A stretch of DNA of 64,000 bases, from NCBI GenBank assembly GCA_021825295.1, contig JAKAHV010000013.1:1-64000 (forward strand), written 5' to 3'. Below the pieces are notes generated by a model. That model did no database searches and was not told the origin of the DNA. It was given only the letters and a program-made list of their open reading frames with translations. The DNA is from Nitrospirota bacterium (lineage in GTDB: Bacteria; Nitrospirota; Thermodesulfovibrionia; Thermodesulfovibrionales; JdFR-88). How positions within the stretch are numbered: the first letter of the stretch is position 1; each line of letters opens with the position of its first letter. Shown piece by piece: positions 1 to 30,210 of this stretch. The position numbers and the translations under genes were made by a program.

Positions 1-99
1 TGTATGCGCAAGCTGTTAGGCATTCTTAATGCCATTGTTAAAAACCAGACTCCGTGGCAAGCTGATTTTTCAACTTGCTTAACCCCAAATAACCCTTGA
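1..99 (+). mobile_element. 3' end of an IS110-family transposase (partial)
   Basis: The window opens inside a reading frame that ends at TGA 97-99. The last 32 residues include MRKLLGILNAIVK followed by TPW, which resembles the C-terminal tail of IS110/IS1111-type transposases (a basic RKLL-ILNA helix and a T-P-W). The catalytic DEDD RuvC-like domain and the serine motif lie upstream of the window, so intactness cannot be judged. The element ends a few hundred bases before leuD, where leuC would be expected. The family assignment rests on a short tail only. Confidence 0.5.
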
Positions 100-110
100 C
101 AAAAATCACA
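95..110. promoter_or_regulatory. Possible Crp/Fnr-type site
   Basis: The sequence CTTGA-N6-TCACA has TGA and TCA half-sites with the 6-base spacing of Crp/Fnr operators. It shares the core TGACAAAAATCACA with the better site at 40154-40169. It overlaps the transposase stop codon and no strong -10 sits at a classical distance, so it may be chance or serve leuD weakly. Confidence 0.25.
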
Positions 111-15982: not shown

Positions 15983-16121
15983 TTTTTTACCGCGGGGCCT
16001 GTATTTGTCTGTTCCCGGAGAAAAAAGCATCTGCCTGTTCATGCCCGTCTGTTCCTGGAAAGAGCGAAGAGCAGGCCGCATCTGGCGTCCTGTCCCGGAA
16101 ATTCCCGTTAAGATTATCGGC

Positions 16122-16335
16122 ATGGGAGGACATCCGCCCGGTCCTTGAGTGAGGAGAAAAGCGGACGGATCACGACGCGCCGCATCTTGCCAACCTTTCG
16201 CCATTCGCCCTGGAAGGCGCACTAAATCCCGCCCTGGCGGGACCGTTTGTATACGTCCGGAACCGCGCGACGAACGAAAGGCCGGGCGGATAGCGCAGAC
16301 ACGCCCCGCCAGCCCCATAAATCTGCCGCAGGCCC
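16122..16335 (-). repeat. Dispersed structured repeat R1, copy C
   Basis: Core is 16122-16301. Its ends pair with each other (ATCCGCCCGG / CCGGGCGGAT, with small bulges) and its central hairpin is CCCGCC (16228-16233) / GGCGGG (16236-16241). Conserved blocks are GCGGTTCCGGACGTA, GGCGAATGGCGAAAG and GATCCGTCCGC, read on the minus strand. The extension to 16335 (CCCCGCCAGCCCC...AGGCCC) is shared with the fragments at 168-258 and 36066-36107 and with copy D. The rest of 15880-16121 has no gene; 16010-16120 carries decayed sequence related to the repeat. Confidence 0.7.
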
Positions 16336-25418: not shown

Positions 25419-25772
25419 TCAGCCGCAGGGGAAGTAGTTTATCTCGTAACCCTCGGCCACGAAAGCGGACCTTATGCTCTCCCGCTGCTCGGGGGTAAGC
25501 GAGACAAAGAGCGCCTGAACCTTGTCCGCGGAAGGCTCCACGCAGTTGTAGCGGAACAGGTCCCGCTTCGCGGCGGGCGGCACCGTGGAGCGGTCTAGCA
25601 CCCGCTTGAAATCCCCGCTTTCGCAGAGCATCTTGTAAAGCCCTTTCCTCTTGCTCGCGAAGTAGTAGGCCTTCCCGCCCTTATAGATTATAAACCGGTT
25701 GGTGCTGCACCCAAGGAAGGAGGCCGACGCCAGAAGCAGCACGGCCAAAGACAAAAAACCCTTCAATTTCAT
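25419..25772 (-). CDS. Small hypothetical lipoprotein
   Basis: A 117-residue protein with a lipoprotein signal peptide (KLKGFLSLAVLLLASASFLGC; lipobox SFLGC, Cys about 22). The mature 95 residues contain YYFASKRKGLYKMLCESGDF and a C-terminal NYFPCG, with three further cysteines. No family recognised. Its ATG overlaps the tlpA-like stop as ATGA, so the two are translationally coupled; a shared periplasmic redox or outer-membrane role is possible. Confidence 0.72.
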   Translation of the reverse strand: MKLKGFLSLAVLLLASASFLGCSTNRFIIYKGGKAYYFASKRKGLYKMLCESGDFKRVLDRSTVPPAAKRDLFRYNCVEPSADKVQALFVSLTPEQRESIRSAFVAEGYEINYFPCG

Positions 25773-26299
25773 TTCATAAGCTCCTCTACCTTGCTGATCA
25801 TCCGGGGCGAGGTCCAGTCCTGCGCTCCGTAGTACTTGCCGGCCAGGTCCCCGTTTTTATCGACAAAAAAGGTGACTGGAAGAGCAAAGACCGCATAGAG
25901 GTCGAATGACACCTTACGGTCCGGGTCTTCGAGGACGGGATAAGGCAGGGGGTCTTTGCTCAGGAATTCCTTCACCGCGCGCTCCGAGCCGTCAATGGAG
26001 ACCGAAATTATCTGCAATTTCCCCTTGTATCTCTGGGCCAGGGCCTTCAGCGAGGGGATTTCCTCGACGCAGGCGGGGCACCAGGTGGCCCAGAAATTCA
26101 GGAGCACGGCCTTCCCCCTGTAGGCGGAAAGGCTGTATACCTTCCCGTCGGCGGCCTTCAGGCTGAAATCCGGGGCCTTGCGGGGCGCGGCCCCTGCCAG
26201 ACGGGGGGATAAAACCGCGGCCAGGCAAAAAACCGACAGACTGAAGACCAGAACGGGCAGGAAACGCGCTAGGTTTACGTGTTTAGAATCTAATAGCAT
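25769..26299 (-). CDS. TlpA/ResA-like periplasmic thioredoxin
   Basis: A 176-residue exported thiol-disulfide oxidoreductase. An N-terminal hydrophobic signal/anchor (about residues 12-36) precedes a TlpA-like domain APDFSLKAADGKVYSLSAY. The active site is NFWATWCPACVEEIPSL and the cis-Pro segment ALPVTFFVDKNG. CPAC is an unusual variant of the WCxxC motif. It could reduce cytochrome c apoproteins or other periplasmic disulfides; the haem c kinase at 57117-59219 is one protein in the window that would need such maturation. No Shine-Dalgarno; a TATTAT lies 9 nt before ATG 26299. Confidence 0.88.
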   Translation of the reverse strand: MLLDSKHVNLARFLPVLVFSLSVFCLAAVLSPRLAGAAPRKAPDFSLKAADGKVYSLSAYRGKAVLLNFWATWCPACVEEIPSLKALAQRYKGKLQIISVSIDGSERAVKEFLSKDPLPYPVLEDPDRKVSFDLYAVFALPVTFFVDKNGDLAGKYYGAQDWTSPRMISKVEELMK

Positions 26300-26419: not shown

Positions 26420-26830
26420 TTATATGAAGAGGCTGCTGCCGGCCTCCTGCGCGAACTCTATGAACTTGTCCGCATCGGCCACCTCGACATTGTCGATGAG
26501 GTCTTCCTTCTTGTAGCCGAACATCTGCATGGTCGCCGAGCAGGCGATGAATTTCACGCCGGCGTCCTGGCACATCTGGATCATGCCCGGTATGTCCGCC
26601 CAGTTTACCGCGGCGGCCAGCTTCGGGAGCGCCTCCATCCCGGGGGGCGGCGGTATCTGCTTGTTTTTCTCCCTGTGGAGGATGTTCAGGCCGCCAAAGG
26701 CGAAGAAGACCCTTACGTCGGTGTCCAGGGCGGCGGCGGTCGCCGAAAGCACAAGCGGCGCATACGCCATGTCGAGCGTCCCCTTGCTCGCTATTATTGC
26801 CATCCTTTTCGAATTACCGTTTCCTGCCAT
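26420..26830 (-). CDS. DsrE/DsrF/DrsH-like protein
   Basis: A 136-residue cytoplasmic protein of the DsrE superfamily (peroxiredoxin-like DsrE/F/H fold, linked to sulfur-transfer systems). N-terminus KRMAIIASKGTLDMAYAPLVL, then VRVFFAFGGLNIL, and Cys-bearing segments MIQMCQDAGVKFIACSATMQMFG; the Cys in IACSATMQ is at the position used by DsrE-type sulfur carriers. A perfect AAGGAGGT precedes ATG 26830. A consensus promoter at 26876-26904 drives it as a single gene. Sulfur relay or redox sensing is a family-based inference. Confidence 0.85.
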   Translation of the reverse strand: MAGNGNSKRMAIIASKGTLDMAYAPLVLSATAAALDTDVRVFFAFGGLNILHREKNKQIPPPPGMEALPKLAAAVNWADIPGMIQMCQDAGVKFIACSATMQMFGYKKEDLIDNVEVADADKFIEFAQEAGSSLFI

Positions 26831-26965: not shown

Positions 26966-27131
26966 GCCGGCATCTGCCCGCTCCTTCCGTTCAGCGCGCG
27001 GTTCCGGGCGTAAGTCCCGCCGCGGGGGGATTTACGTTGCAGTTAAGGGCGAATGTCAGGCCATTGTCAAGATGCGGTCCGCCGTGATCCGTCCGCTCTT
27101 CGCTTCTCTCCAGGAACAGGCAGATGCCGGC
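26966..27131 (+). repeat. Dispersed structured repeat R1, copy D
   Basis: Ends GCCGGCATCTGC (26966-26977) and GCAGATGCCGGC (27120-27131) are perfect 12-bp complements. The inner stem GTAA-x-TCCC / GGGA-x-TTAC is around 27010-27034. Conserved blocks GCGGTTCCGGGCGTAA, GGGCGAATG and GTGATCCGTCCGC are present. The flank to about 27170 (CCCCGCAAATC...GCAGGCCC) is shared with copies at 168 and 16300. It fills most of the 26905-27243 spacer. Confidence 0.72.
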
Positions 27132-27243: not shown

Positions 27244-27906
27244 ATGCTCGAAAAGATAGGCATATTCAGCGGCCTCTCCCGCCAGGAGGCGGAATCCCTG
27301 GAGCCCTTCTTCAAACAGGAGCGGCGCAGGAAAAGAGACGTCATCTTCTCCGAAGGAGACCCCTCGCAATGGTTCTATGCCGTTTTGGAGGGGAAGGTCA
27401 AGATCACCAAGCTCTCCCAGGAGGGAAAGGAGCTGATACTGGAGATGATAGGGCCCGGCGAGGTATTCGGCGGGGTTGCCGCGATAAGGGGGCTGCCCTA
27501 TCCGGCGAATGCCCTGGCCATGGAGGACTGCCTGCTCCTGAAGGTCTCGAGTGAAGACCTGCTTGGCATACTCGGACGCTTCCCTGTCCTCACCATGGCC
27601 ATCTTCCAGGACCTGGGCGGAAGGCTGCAGCGCTCGCACGAAAGCGTGAAGCTGATGGCGCTTGAGAAGGTGATGGCGCGCGTGGCCGCTCTGCTTGTAA
27701 AGCTTGCCGGGAAGGACGGAAGGCAGACCCCCGAGGGGACCCTCATCGATATGAGGCTCACCAAGCAGGAGATAGCCGAGATGGTCGGCACCACCGTGGA
27801 GACGTCCATAAGGACGATGAGCCGCCTCAAAAAAGACGGCATCATCGCGGAAAAAAACGGCGGCATCCTGATAAAGGACATGGAGCGCCTCAAGGAACTG
27901 ATATGA
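27244..27906 (+). CDS. Crp/Fnr-family transcriptional regulator
   Basis: A 220-residue regulator. The cyclic-nucleotide-like beta-roll (about 8-120) contains KRDVIFSEGDPSQWFYAVLEGKVKI and MIGPGEVFGGVAAI. A dimer helix and a winged HTH follow (LTKQEIAEMVGTTVETSIRTMSRLKKDG, about 168-195). There is no N-terminal cysteine cluster, so it is not an oxygen-sensing [4Fe-4S] Fnr; ligand or redox input (cNMP, NO-haem) is unknown. The recognition helix VETSIRTMSRL matches the Crp/Fnr class that reads TGA-N6-TCA sites, found at 28575-28588 and 40154-40169. ATG 27244 lacks a Shine-Dalgarno. Confidence 0.92.
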   Translation: MLEKIGIFSGLSRQEAESLEPFFKQERRRKRDVIFSEGDPSQWFYAVLEGKVKITKLSQEGKELILEMIGPGEVFGGVAAIRGLPYPANALAMEDCLLLKVSSEDLLGILGRFPVLTMAIFQDLGGRLQRSHESVKLMALEKVMARVAALLVKLAGKDGRQTPEGTLIDMRLTKQEIAEMVGTTVETSIRTMSRLKKDGIIAEKNGGILIKDMERLKELI

Positions 27907-27982
27907 ATCCCTGGAGGGCCTGAAATCTACCCTAATGCCGGTAAAATGAGCCGTTTGCCGTTATTTGGGGGCCGGGGGCGAG

Positions 27983-28008
27983 GCCACCCGCCCTTAAGGG
28001 CGGGTGGC
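27983..28008. terminator. Hairpin between convergent crp and oxidase-like genes
   Basis: GCCACCCGCCC (27983-27993) and GGGCGGGTGGC (27998-28008) form a perfect 11-bp stem with a TTAA loop between two convergent genes. T-rich tracts are weak on both sides, so termination is likely but not textbook. Confidence 0.5.
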
Positions 28009-28024
28009 TCTGGGTTATAAAAAA

Positions 28025-28432
28025 TCATTCGGGCGCCTTCGAGTAGATAGTGGCCAGCATGTTGTAGAAAAAAAGCGCAATCGAGACCACCTCCACCGCG
28101 CCAAAGAGGGTTGAAAGCGTCCTCCAGGCCGGGGTCCCAGGGTCGTAAAACGCGGCCAGATAAAAGCCGAGCATCCCTAGAAGGCCCGCGTTCGCCAGCC
28201 AGAACTGGAGCACAGCCATAGTCTTGCTCTTTAAAAACCTGCCGGCGAATTTGGGCAGTATGTGATAGCCCACGCCGTAGATCATCATCGAAACCCAGCC
28301 CAGCAGCATCAGGTGCGCGTGCACGAACACCAGCTCCCCGTGCCGCCCGCCGAGCATCAGCACCCCCAGCACCGATGCCGCCATCAGATAGATGATGCTC
28401 ATGAGGATGAAATTCTTGACGAATCTGTCCAT
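28025..28432 (-). CDS. Short haem-copper-oxidase-like (CcoN/NorB-like) membrane protein
   Basis: A 135-residue protein with four predicted transmembrane helices (about 8-28, 35-56, 71-92, 104-126). VFVHAHLMLLGW and YGVGYHILPKF place histidines 38, 40 and 57 as in the first helices of subunit I of cbb3 oxidases and NO reductases. The remaining metal-binding helices of a full oxidase (450+ residues) are absent. It could bind one haem or act as an accessory or sensor protein; it is not a complete terminal oxidase. AGGAGG precedes ATG 28432; the open frame upstream is not used. Divergent from the DUF1858 gene across an Fnr-type site. Confidence 0.75.
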   Translation of the reverse strand: MDRFVKNFILMSIIYLMAASVLGVLMLGGRHGELVFVHAHLMLLGWVSMMIYGVGYHILPKFAGRFLKSKTMAVLQFWLANAGLLGMLGFYLAAFYDPGTPAWRTLSTLFGAVEVVSIALFFYNMLATIYSKAPE

Positions 28433-28574
28433 CCGGAAAATCCTCCTTCCCCTGTCTCTTGTATAATTCCTGTTACATAATATCGGGACCCGGACGGCTG
28501 CGGCAATGACGGCCGTCATAAATGGAGGGGGCCAGGCAGACATCGCCCTGCACGGGAGAAGGGGCGGCCGCGTT

Positions 28575-28616
28575 ATGACATATATCATGGCGGCAGGAAA
28601 GGCCGCGCGGTATCAT
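28575..28616 (+). promoter_or_regulatory. Class II Crp/Fnr-type promoter for DUF1858
   Basis: ATGAC-ATAT-ATCAT (28575-28588) fits TTGA(T/C)-N4-ATCAA at all but the outermost bases. TATCAT at 28611-28616 predicts a start at 28623, so the operator is centred exactly at -41.5, the classical class II activator position. No -35 hexamer is needed in this arrangement. The Crp/Fnr gene 700 bp away is the obvious candidate regulator. Confidence 0.6.
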
Positions 28617-28664
28617 CAGGACAGAAGAGATGAACAACCCGCAGTGATAAAGGAGGTATGAAAG

Positions 28665-28916
28665 ATGGCGGCGGACGCGAAAAACAAAGACGGCTTGATT
28701 ATTAAAGACGGCGTAACTGGGGACTCCCTTATCGGGGACGTGATAAACCGGAGCCCCGAGGCGAAGAGGATCGTGGAGAAATATTTCGGAAACGGCTGTT
28801 TCACCTGCCCGGGAATAAAGGTGGAAACGCTGGCCTTCGGCGCGATGATGCACAACGTGGACCCGGCCAGGCTCATTAACGAGATAAACGGCGCGGAGGT
28901 GAAAAATGAAGGTTAG
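28665..28916 (+). CDS. DUF1858 domain protein
   Basis: An 83-residue cytoplasmic protein. VTGDSLIGDVINRSPEAKRIVEKYF, GNGCFTCPG and ETLAFGAMMHNVDPARLINEIN give the compact helical DUF1858 fold, with the two conserved cysteines C45 and C48 in CFTC. DUF1858 modules often accompany hybrid-cluster and other redox proteins; a metal, haem or persulfide-related role is inferred. GGAGG precedes ATG 28665. The stop overlaps a 42-residue zinc-ribbon gene by 11 nt, and expression is probably from the Fnr-type promoter upstream. Confidence 0.88.
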   Translation: MAADAKNKDGLIIKDGVTGDSLIGDVINRSPEAKRIVEKYFGNGCFTCPGIKVETLAFGAMMHNVDPARLINEINGAEVKNEG

Positions 28917-29034
28917 GTGCTTTGTATGCGGCGCCCAGGAGGCAGACAGGGTCTATCTGCACTGCGTGCACGAGGGCGAGGAAAAGCTGGTATGCGCGCG
29001 CTGCCTGCCCGTACTCATACACGGGGCGCATTAG
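28906..29034 (+). CDS. 42-residue zinc-ribbon protein
   Basis: A small gene read directly: ATG AAG GTT AGG TGC to TAG. The product has two CxxC pairs, RCFVCGAQ (C5, C8) and LVCARCLP (C30, C33), 21 residues apart, plus YLHCVHEGEE between them and a C-terminal LIHGAH. This is the geometry of a treble-clef or rubredoxin-like zinc ribbon. The coding frame overlaps the DUF1858 stop, so it is translationally coupled to it. No named family is claimed. Confidence 0.75.
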   Translation: MKVRCFVCGAQEADRVYLHCVHEGEEKLVCARCLPVLIHGAH

Positions 29035-29070
29035 TGTAGCGTCCCGGGAATTCGCGTTAAAATTATCAGC

Positions 29071-29231
29071 ATGGGAGGATGTCCGCCTGGCCCTTGAGAG
29101 AGCGAGCAGGCTGACGGATCACGGCGCGCCGCATCCTGCCAATCTTTCGCCATTCGCGCTGAAAAACGCCCTAAACAAAGTTTTTATACGCCCGGAGCTT
29201 CAGACGAAAGGACTGGGCGGACATCAGGCAT
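29071..29231 (-). repeat. Dispersed structured repeat R1, copy B
   Basis: Ends GATGTCCGCC and GGGCGGACATC pair. On the minus strand it carries CTCCGGGCGTATAAAAAC, GCGAATGGCGAAAGATTGGCA and GCGCCGTGATCCGTC. The central CCCGCC hairpin is replaced by a weak AAAC/GTTT stem (29173-29183). The 30 bp before it (CCCGGGAATTCGCG and on) is also shared with the flank of copy C. It fills the space between the zinc-ribbon and metallophosphoesterase genes. Confidence 0.72.
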
Positions 29232-29253
29232 AGTCAGAGGAATTACGGGCCTG

Positions 29254-30029: not shown

Positions 30030-30210
30030 ATGGGCTGATATCCGCCTGGCCTTTCGTTCGGCTCGCGCGGTTCCGGGCGTATATAAACGGTCCCGCCGAG
30101 GCGGGATTTAGTTCGTCTTTCATGGCGAATGGCGAAAGATTGGCAAGATGCGGCGCGTCGTGATCCGTCCGCCTGCTCGCTCTCTCAAGGGCCAGGCGGA
30201 TATCAGGCAT
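30030..30210 (+). repeat. Dispersed structured repeat R1, copy A (best preserved)
   Basis: Imperfect 20-bp ends: CTGATATCCGCCTGGCC at the left and GGCCAGGCGGATATCAG at the right. The central hairpin is CCCGCC (30092-30097) / GGCGGG (30100-30105). Blocks GCGGTTCCGGGCGTATA, GGCGAATGGCGAAAG and GTGATCCGTCCGCC are conserved. It lies between the metallophosphoesterase and nusB. Confidence 0.75.

Follow-up and report, generated by a model that had tools for sequence, protein, structure and literature searches.

Within a 64,000-nucleotide stretch of a Nitrospirota contig (hereafter the window), a Crp/Fnr-type regulator lies close to genes for a short oxidase-like membrane protein, a DUF1858 protein and a 42-residue zinc-ribbon-like protein, raising the question of whether these genes form a functional unit and to which signal such a unit would respond. 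Nitrospirota play a major part in nitrogen and sulfur cycling, and the short COX1-like proteins, DUF1858 and the 42-aa zinc ribbon are three uncharacterised families for which the analysis below offers a hypothesis of function.

Organisation and conservation of the module

The gene calls of the initial annotation (a Crp/Fnr regulator, a short CcoN/NorB-like protein, a DUF1858 protein and a 42-residue protein) match Pfam assignments and ORF positions, and its TGAC-N4-ATCA site, TATCAT hexamer and -41.5 centring all lie exactly where it had placed them. It had recognised one operator only, overlooking a second site that faces the membrane protein gene. The features of the locus are as follows.

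25769-26299: TlpA-like gene near the module
26420-26830: DsrE-like gene near the module
27244..27906, plus strand: REG, Crp/Fnr-type regulator of 220 aa (PF00027, PF13545)
28025..28432, minus strand: MEM, 135-aa COX1-like four-helix membrane protein (PF00115, E 2e-9)
28477..28482, minus strand: predicted -10 of the MEM promoter, TATTAT, spacer of 23 from operator 1
28506..28519, minus strand: operator 1 (predicted), ATGACGGCCGTCAT, a perfect palindrome facing MEM
28575..28588, plus strand: operator 2 (predicted), ATGACATATATCAT, facing DUF1858 and centred at -41.5
28611..28616, plus strand: predicted -10 of the DUF1858 promoter, TATCAT, spacer of 22, the conserved spacing
28665..28916, plus strand: DUF1858 protein of 83 aa with a CFTCPG motif (PF08984, E 2e-11)
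28906..29034, plus strand: ZR, 42-aa Cys/His zinc-ribbon-like protein, CxxC...C...CxRC...H..H

The palindrome of operator 2 is centred at 28581.5, 41.5 bp from the predicted start at 28623. The start of the ZR gene overlaps the end of the DUF1858 gene by 11 nt, and ZR has no significant Pfam family. The DUF1858 protein scored 44.4 bits against PF08984, above the cut-off of 32.2, and 43.4 against TIGR03980, the hybrid cluster protein-associated redox disulfide domain, just under the cut-off of 44.95.

REG, MEM, DUF1858 and ZR constitute a conserved module in Nitrospirota. In a sample of 101 genomes spanning the organism's own genome, genus, family and order, MEM and DUF1858 occurred together in 62, singly in two and three respectively, and neither was found in 34 (Fisher 5e-21, from counts uncorrected for phylogeny). 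The two genes formed divergent pairs in 37 of the 38 genomes carrying both on one contig, most of them less than 1 kb apart. ZR directly follows DUF1858 in nearly all loci, even where DUF1858 lies far from MEM, and REG adjoins MEM in convergent orientation in most. The neighbourhood check thus revealed strong linkage and co-occurrence across the order, reaching other classes of the phylum: more divergent MEM proteins in other families, orders and classes often have DUF1858 (and ZR) alongside in codirectional arrangement, with ATGAY sites upstream of or between the genes. A search for MEM across 84,980 species genomes yielded 249 loci, the best 80 of which were examined and are mostly titled Nitrospirae, Nitrospirota or Thermodesulfovibrionales; because these are the best 80 of 249, phyla beyond Nitrospirota may also hold MEM. 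The DsrE- and TlpA-like genes do lie near REG in the window as first described, and we rejected them as core members since their linkage is hardly conserved outside the same family.

Several intergenic copies of a repeat of approximately 90-190 bp also lie close to the module. Scored copies across the genome, from 86 candidates, number at least 40 and are approximately 72-93 % identical, those in the window being at 29060-29245, 30107-30204, 27014-27096 and 16113-16226. The repeat is possibly an element of the MITE or REP kind.

A shared operator and its associated genes

The exact motif ATGAY-N4-RTCAT was present within 300 bp of the start of 73 of 80 MEM genes and 58 of 62 DUF1858 genes, while a reversed control pattern gave no matches upstream of either. 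A T precedes the motif in 98 % of cases and an A follows it in 87 %, extending the operator to TATGAY-N4-RTCATA. In 98 of 131 cases the distance from the site to the start of a TANNNT hexamer is exactly 22 bp, with few at most other spacings; this 22-bp spacing is the geometry predicted for class II activation and recurs across the phylum. Genome-wide, the exact motif occurred 20 times in this genome against two for the reversed control, well above chance, 13-22 times against 2-6 in five relatives, and eight times against seven in the smallest genome scanned. Several matches fall inside genes and are probably due to chance. The alternative pattern TTGAC-N4-ATCAA was discarded as an operator, its matches in this genome being mostly scattered, apart from a repeat at contig ends. 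The 14-mer TTGACAAAAATCAC, at window positions 96-109, recurs near the ends of many contigs of this genome (G000), including C28, C30, C35, C36, C46 and C63, which suggests that a repetitive element interrupts the assembly.

Intergenic ATGAY sites precede hcp in four scanned genomes, this one included. Further genes with an upstream site encode flavodiiron NO reductase-like, NrfA-like cytochrome, NapH-like, NifU/NfuA-like, HAO-like multiheme, NorC-like cytochrome c, CopD-like, cupin and NIR_SIR proteins, and a -10 lies at 22-23 bp in 19 of 31 gene-facing site orientations. Among 22 MEM-bearing genomes in which hcp was inspected, 18 had the exact ATGAY site, one had a single mismatch, and three had a TTGAY site with a second Crp/Fnr paralog alongside. 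Eight hcp-bearing genomes without MEM comprised four with TTGAY and no close REG ortholog, two with ATGAY and REG, and two (G003 and G008) with an ATGAY operator upstream of hcp (L313, L315) in which neither REG nor MEM was detected. Of 64 MEM-bearing genomes only 25 have hcp, so the link between the module and Hcp is not a strict one; co-occurrence of hcp and MEM (Fisher p 0.3) is uninformative on function, the informative feature being the operator at hcp.

The occurrence of the same site before hcp, flavodiiron NO reductase, NrfA-like and NifU-like genes points most probably to an HcpR-like regulon of altered DNA specificity, and strengthens the NO side of the initial proposal of a compact redox- or NO-response module, a proposal which the conserved linkage and the shared operator at NO-related genes both support. 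We consider it likely that the module is the core of a Nitrospirota nitrosative-stress regulon, responding to NO, hydroxylamine or nitrite, with REG an HcpR/NnrR-like regulator that reads ATGAY-N4-RTCAT. Assignment of the genes to this regulon is well supported. For the signal, the sensor cofactor and the biochemical roles of DUF1858, ZR and MEM we advance hypotheses. NO or a related nitrogen oxide would turn REG into its DNA-binding form. REG would then occupy both operators of the divergent intergenic region and, contacting RNA polymerase in the class II manner, switch on MEM to one side and DUF1858-ZR to the other; elsewhere in the genome it would activate hcp, the NfuA/NifU-like gene and other redox genes. 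DUF1858, a relative of the ScdA_N domain found in proteins that repair iron centres, would most likely act with ZR as a thiol/metal pair that protects or repairs NO-damaged Fe-S proteins.

Two other assignments of the regulon were weighed. REG could instead be a general anaerobiosis or redox regulator of FNR- or FixK-like type and the module an oxygen or redox adaptation set, as oxygen regulation typically works through FNR-type sites in a class II arrangement, and a number of the candidate targets, among them multiheme cytochromes and NapH-like and CBS proteins, have generic redox functions. However, REG lacks an N-terminal cysteine cluster and its sole cysteine, C96, is not conserved among 55 orthologs, giving no support to FNR-type oxygen sensing, while the targets include hcp and flavodiiron NO reductase-like, NrfA-like and HAO-like genes, and the Thermus and Bradyrhizobium cases described below are tied to NO or nitrite respiration; we regard this assignment as decidedly unlikely. 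A role in sulfur redox metabolism, with DUF1858 as a sulfur carrier or disulfide protein, is highly improbable. It would accommodate the DsrE- and TlpA-like genes that adjoin REG in the window, as well as a regulon candidate of this genome encoding a 275-aa NIR_SIR protein with distant similarity to DsrB, but the DsrE/TlpA linkage is almost confined to one family whereas the operator is shared with hcp and further nitrogen-oxide genes in several families. The NIR_SIR gene itself (contig C56, L160:2555, G000) is preceded by an ATGAY site with a -10 at 22 bp; its product is also distantly similar to NirB, making it a candidate siroheme enzyme of the nitrosative-stress regulon.

The sequence of REG contains no recognisable sensor cofactor motif, and its PDB matches are generic Crp/Fnr proteins. 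Sensing of cAMP likewise finds no support in the residues, the Arg-Ser pair of the cAMP pocket being replaced by P-Y-P-A-N-A, conserved in orthologs, at a position assigned by eye from what is known of the family. Autoregulation was rejected, no operator lying within 300 bp upstream of any of 55 REG genes.

The recognition helix of REG is VGTTVETSIRTMSRL; VGTTVETSIRT is shared among its orthologs, 54-55 of 55 of which retain E186, I189 and R190. Another family has REG orthologs that, in five genomes, lie approximately 0.1-2.3 kb from hcp, a co-location absent from the window, and combine T-T/V-E-T-A/T-I/F-R with ATGAT-N4-ATCAT sites. The Crp/Fnr paralogs beside TTGAY hcp genes carry IPETISR or IPETLSR instead. 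The position equivalent to FNR Ser-212, one of three residues reported to make the major contacts to the FNR box (PMC4505428), is I/F in the REG clade versus S in the TTGAY paralogs, and position 185 also differs, V/T against P. The correlation suggests that the residue equivalent to FNR Ser212 may set the first base of the half-site; since the comparison is between two deep clades, one evolutionary event may account for it. Beyond this natural Ile-versus-Ser correlation, the predicted Crp/Fnr DNA specificity is one that we did not find in the literature searched, word searches having returned no prior description of an ATGAY-N4-RTCAT operator.

MEM and the heme-copper oxidase fold

MEM scored 37.1 bits against PF00115 (cut-off 34.8), and its profile matched the cbb3 CcoN chains in the PDB with an E-value of 2e-9, while PHROGs gave no match. 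An AlphaFold2 model (pLDDT 83) has four long helices, against 12 in subunit I. Foldseek ranked cbb3 and cNOR structures at the top, but with weak E-values of approximately 0.4, and we do not take the structure search as proof of a heme-copper oxidase fold. Aligned with 13 CcoN-like proteins of the phylum, MEM matched the first part (approximately residues 10-149) and the last (approximately 300-455), with weak alignment to the middle (approximately 206-242), and hence corresponds to one four-helix repeat. Word searches of the literature found no prior description of a single-repeat oxidase, and such a relative could allow direct study of the internal threefold repeat of the fold.

H38, H40 and H57 are the only invariant histidines among 79 MEM sequences. 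H38 aligns with the helix II histidine of CcoN, and H38/H40 with the His-x-His of helix X. In heme-copper oxidases the low-spin heme is ligated by the helix II histidine together with the second histidine of helix X, whose first histidine binds the high-spin heme. Known heme ligands and the alignment of H38/H40 together lead to a model of heme at oligomer interfaces. We propose that MEM most likely binds b-type heme through the invariant H-x-H, probably at the interfaces of a homo-oligomer, and would handle NO or electrons in the membrane. In its most specific form, which we hold to be doubtful, MEM would be a homo-oligomer, possibly a trimer mimicking the 12-helix subunit, with b-hemes between H38 and the H40 of a neighbour, acting on NO. 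Were the oligomer reading true, stages by which the oxidase fold arose would survive in the proteins of one, two and three repeats.

Other families of the phylum have proteins of 281-290 aa that comprise two MEM units. Loci of this eight-helix form include L297:566-1411, L292:288-1157, L296:3608-4453 and L298:2861-3733. In two tandem examples that were aligned, one unit retains the His-x-His and the other has a changed version of it.

MEM spans one of the three repeats of the heme-copper oxidases, lacking the CuB ligands and the full set of conserved histidines of subunit I, as might an oxidase subunit that had decayed or been truncated, or a structural protein free of cofactor, carried along with a DUF1858 repair function. 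We judge this unlikely, given a mean column identity of 71 % (32 sequences), the invariance of the three histidines, an operator of its own at 73 of 80 loci, the tandem two-repeat forms and a stand-alone homolog in another phylum.

Comparison with known systems

The stand-alone homolog, a distant one of 125 aa (E 3e-21), is found in Thermus thermophilus, where its gene overlaps the end of nsrT in the cluster nsrR-nsrS-nsrT, beside norCBH and nirS. It is the fourth small gene there (L402:8977-9354, plasmid pTHTHE1601) and is annotated as hypothetical. NorH, with a weak E-value of 0.03, was rejected as the Thermus homolog of MEM. NsrS matches ScdA_N, DUF1858 falling below the cut-off, and a cupin is also encoded in this nic cluster. 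As in the Nitrospirota module, a small ScdA_N/DUF1858-like protein and a MEM homolog lie by nitric oxide and nitrite genes with an NO-type regulator; the regulator is, however, the Rrf2-type NsrR and the 42-aa ZR is absent. NsrR controls nor and nir in T. thermophilus, and the main text of the report contains no mention that we found of the 125-aa gene after nsrT (PMC5748679).

Haloarchaeal plasmids encode proteins of 445-455 aa whose N-terminal unit resembles MEM. DUF2249 genes lie nearby, joined at some loci by a multicopper oxidase, a long COX1-like gene or DUF542-hemerythrin genes. As a homolog of ZR, a 41-aa archaeal zinc-binding gene was rejected. Like MEM, CcoN and NorB are built of four-helix repeats, those at both ends of CcoN matching MEM; unlike it, they have 12 helices rather than four and CuB histidines, and MEM has no catalytic subunit partners nearby.

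In Bradyrhizobium diazoefficiens, NnrR strongly activates the DUF1858 gene bsl7085, which adjoins nnrR (PMC6710368). There too a DUF1858 gene stands beside, and is activated by, an NO-type Crp/Fnr activator, but the half-site differs, and in the portions of that report consulted neither MEM nor ZR is mentioned. This case and the Thermus cluster both lend independent support to the nitrosative-stress reading.

The closest regulatory parallels are the HcpR regulons (Rodionov et al. 2005, PMC1274295; Desulfovibrio HcpR1/HcpR2, PMC5701242), which likewise combine a Crp/Fnr regulator with an hcp target and nrf-like, ferredoxin-like and cytochrome c-like members, and in which the motif co-varies with recognition-helix residues. 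The HcpR motifs are TTGAC-N4-GTCAA, GTAAC-N4-GTTAC and TGTGA-N6-TCACA (PMC1274295), and the predicted REG operator, ATGAY-N4-RTCAT, is none of these. MEM and DUF1858-ZR are the targets most consistently associated with REG, as against hcp and frdX for HcpR, and the REG module, unlike HcpR regulons, is present in many genomes without a close hcp. Set beside these systems, the MEM, DUF1858 and ZR genes with their regulator look like a previously undescribed nitrosative-stress response.
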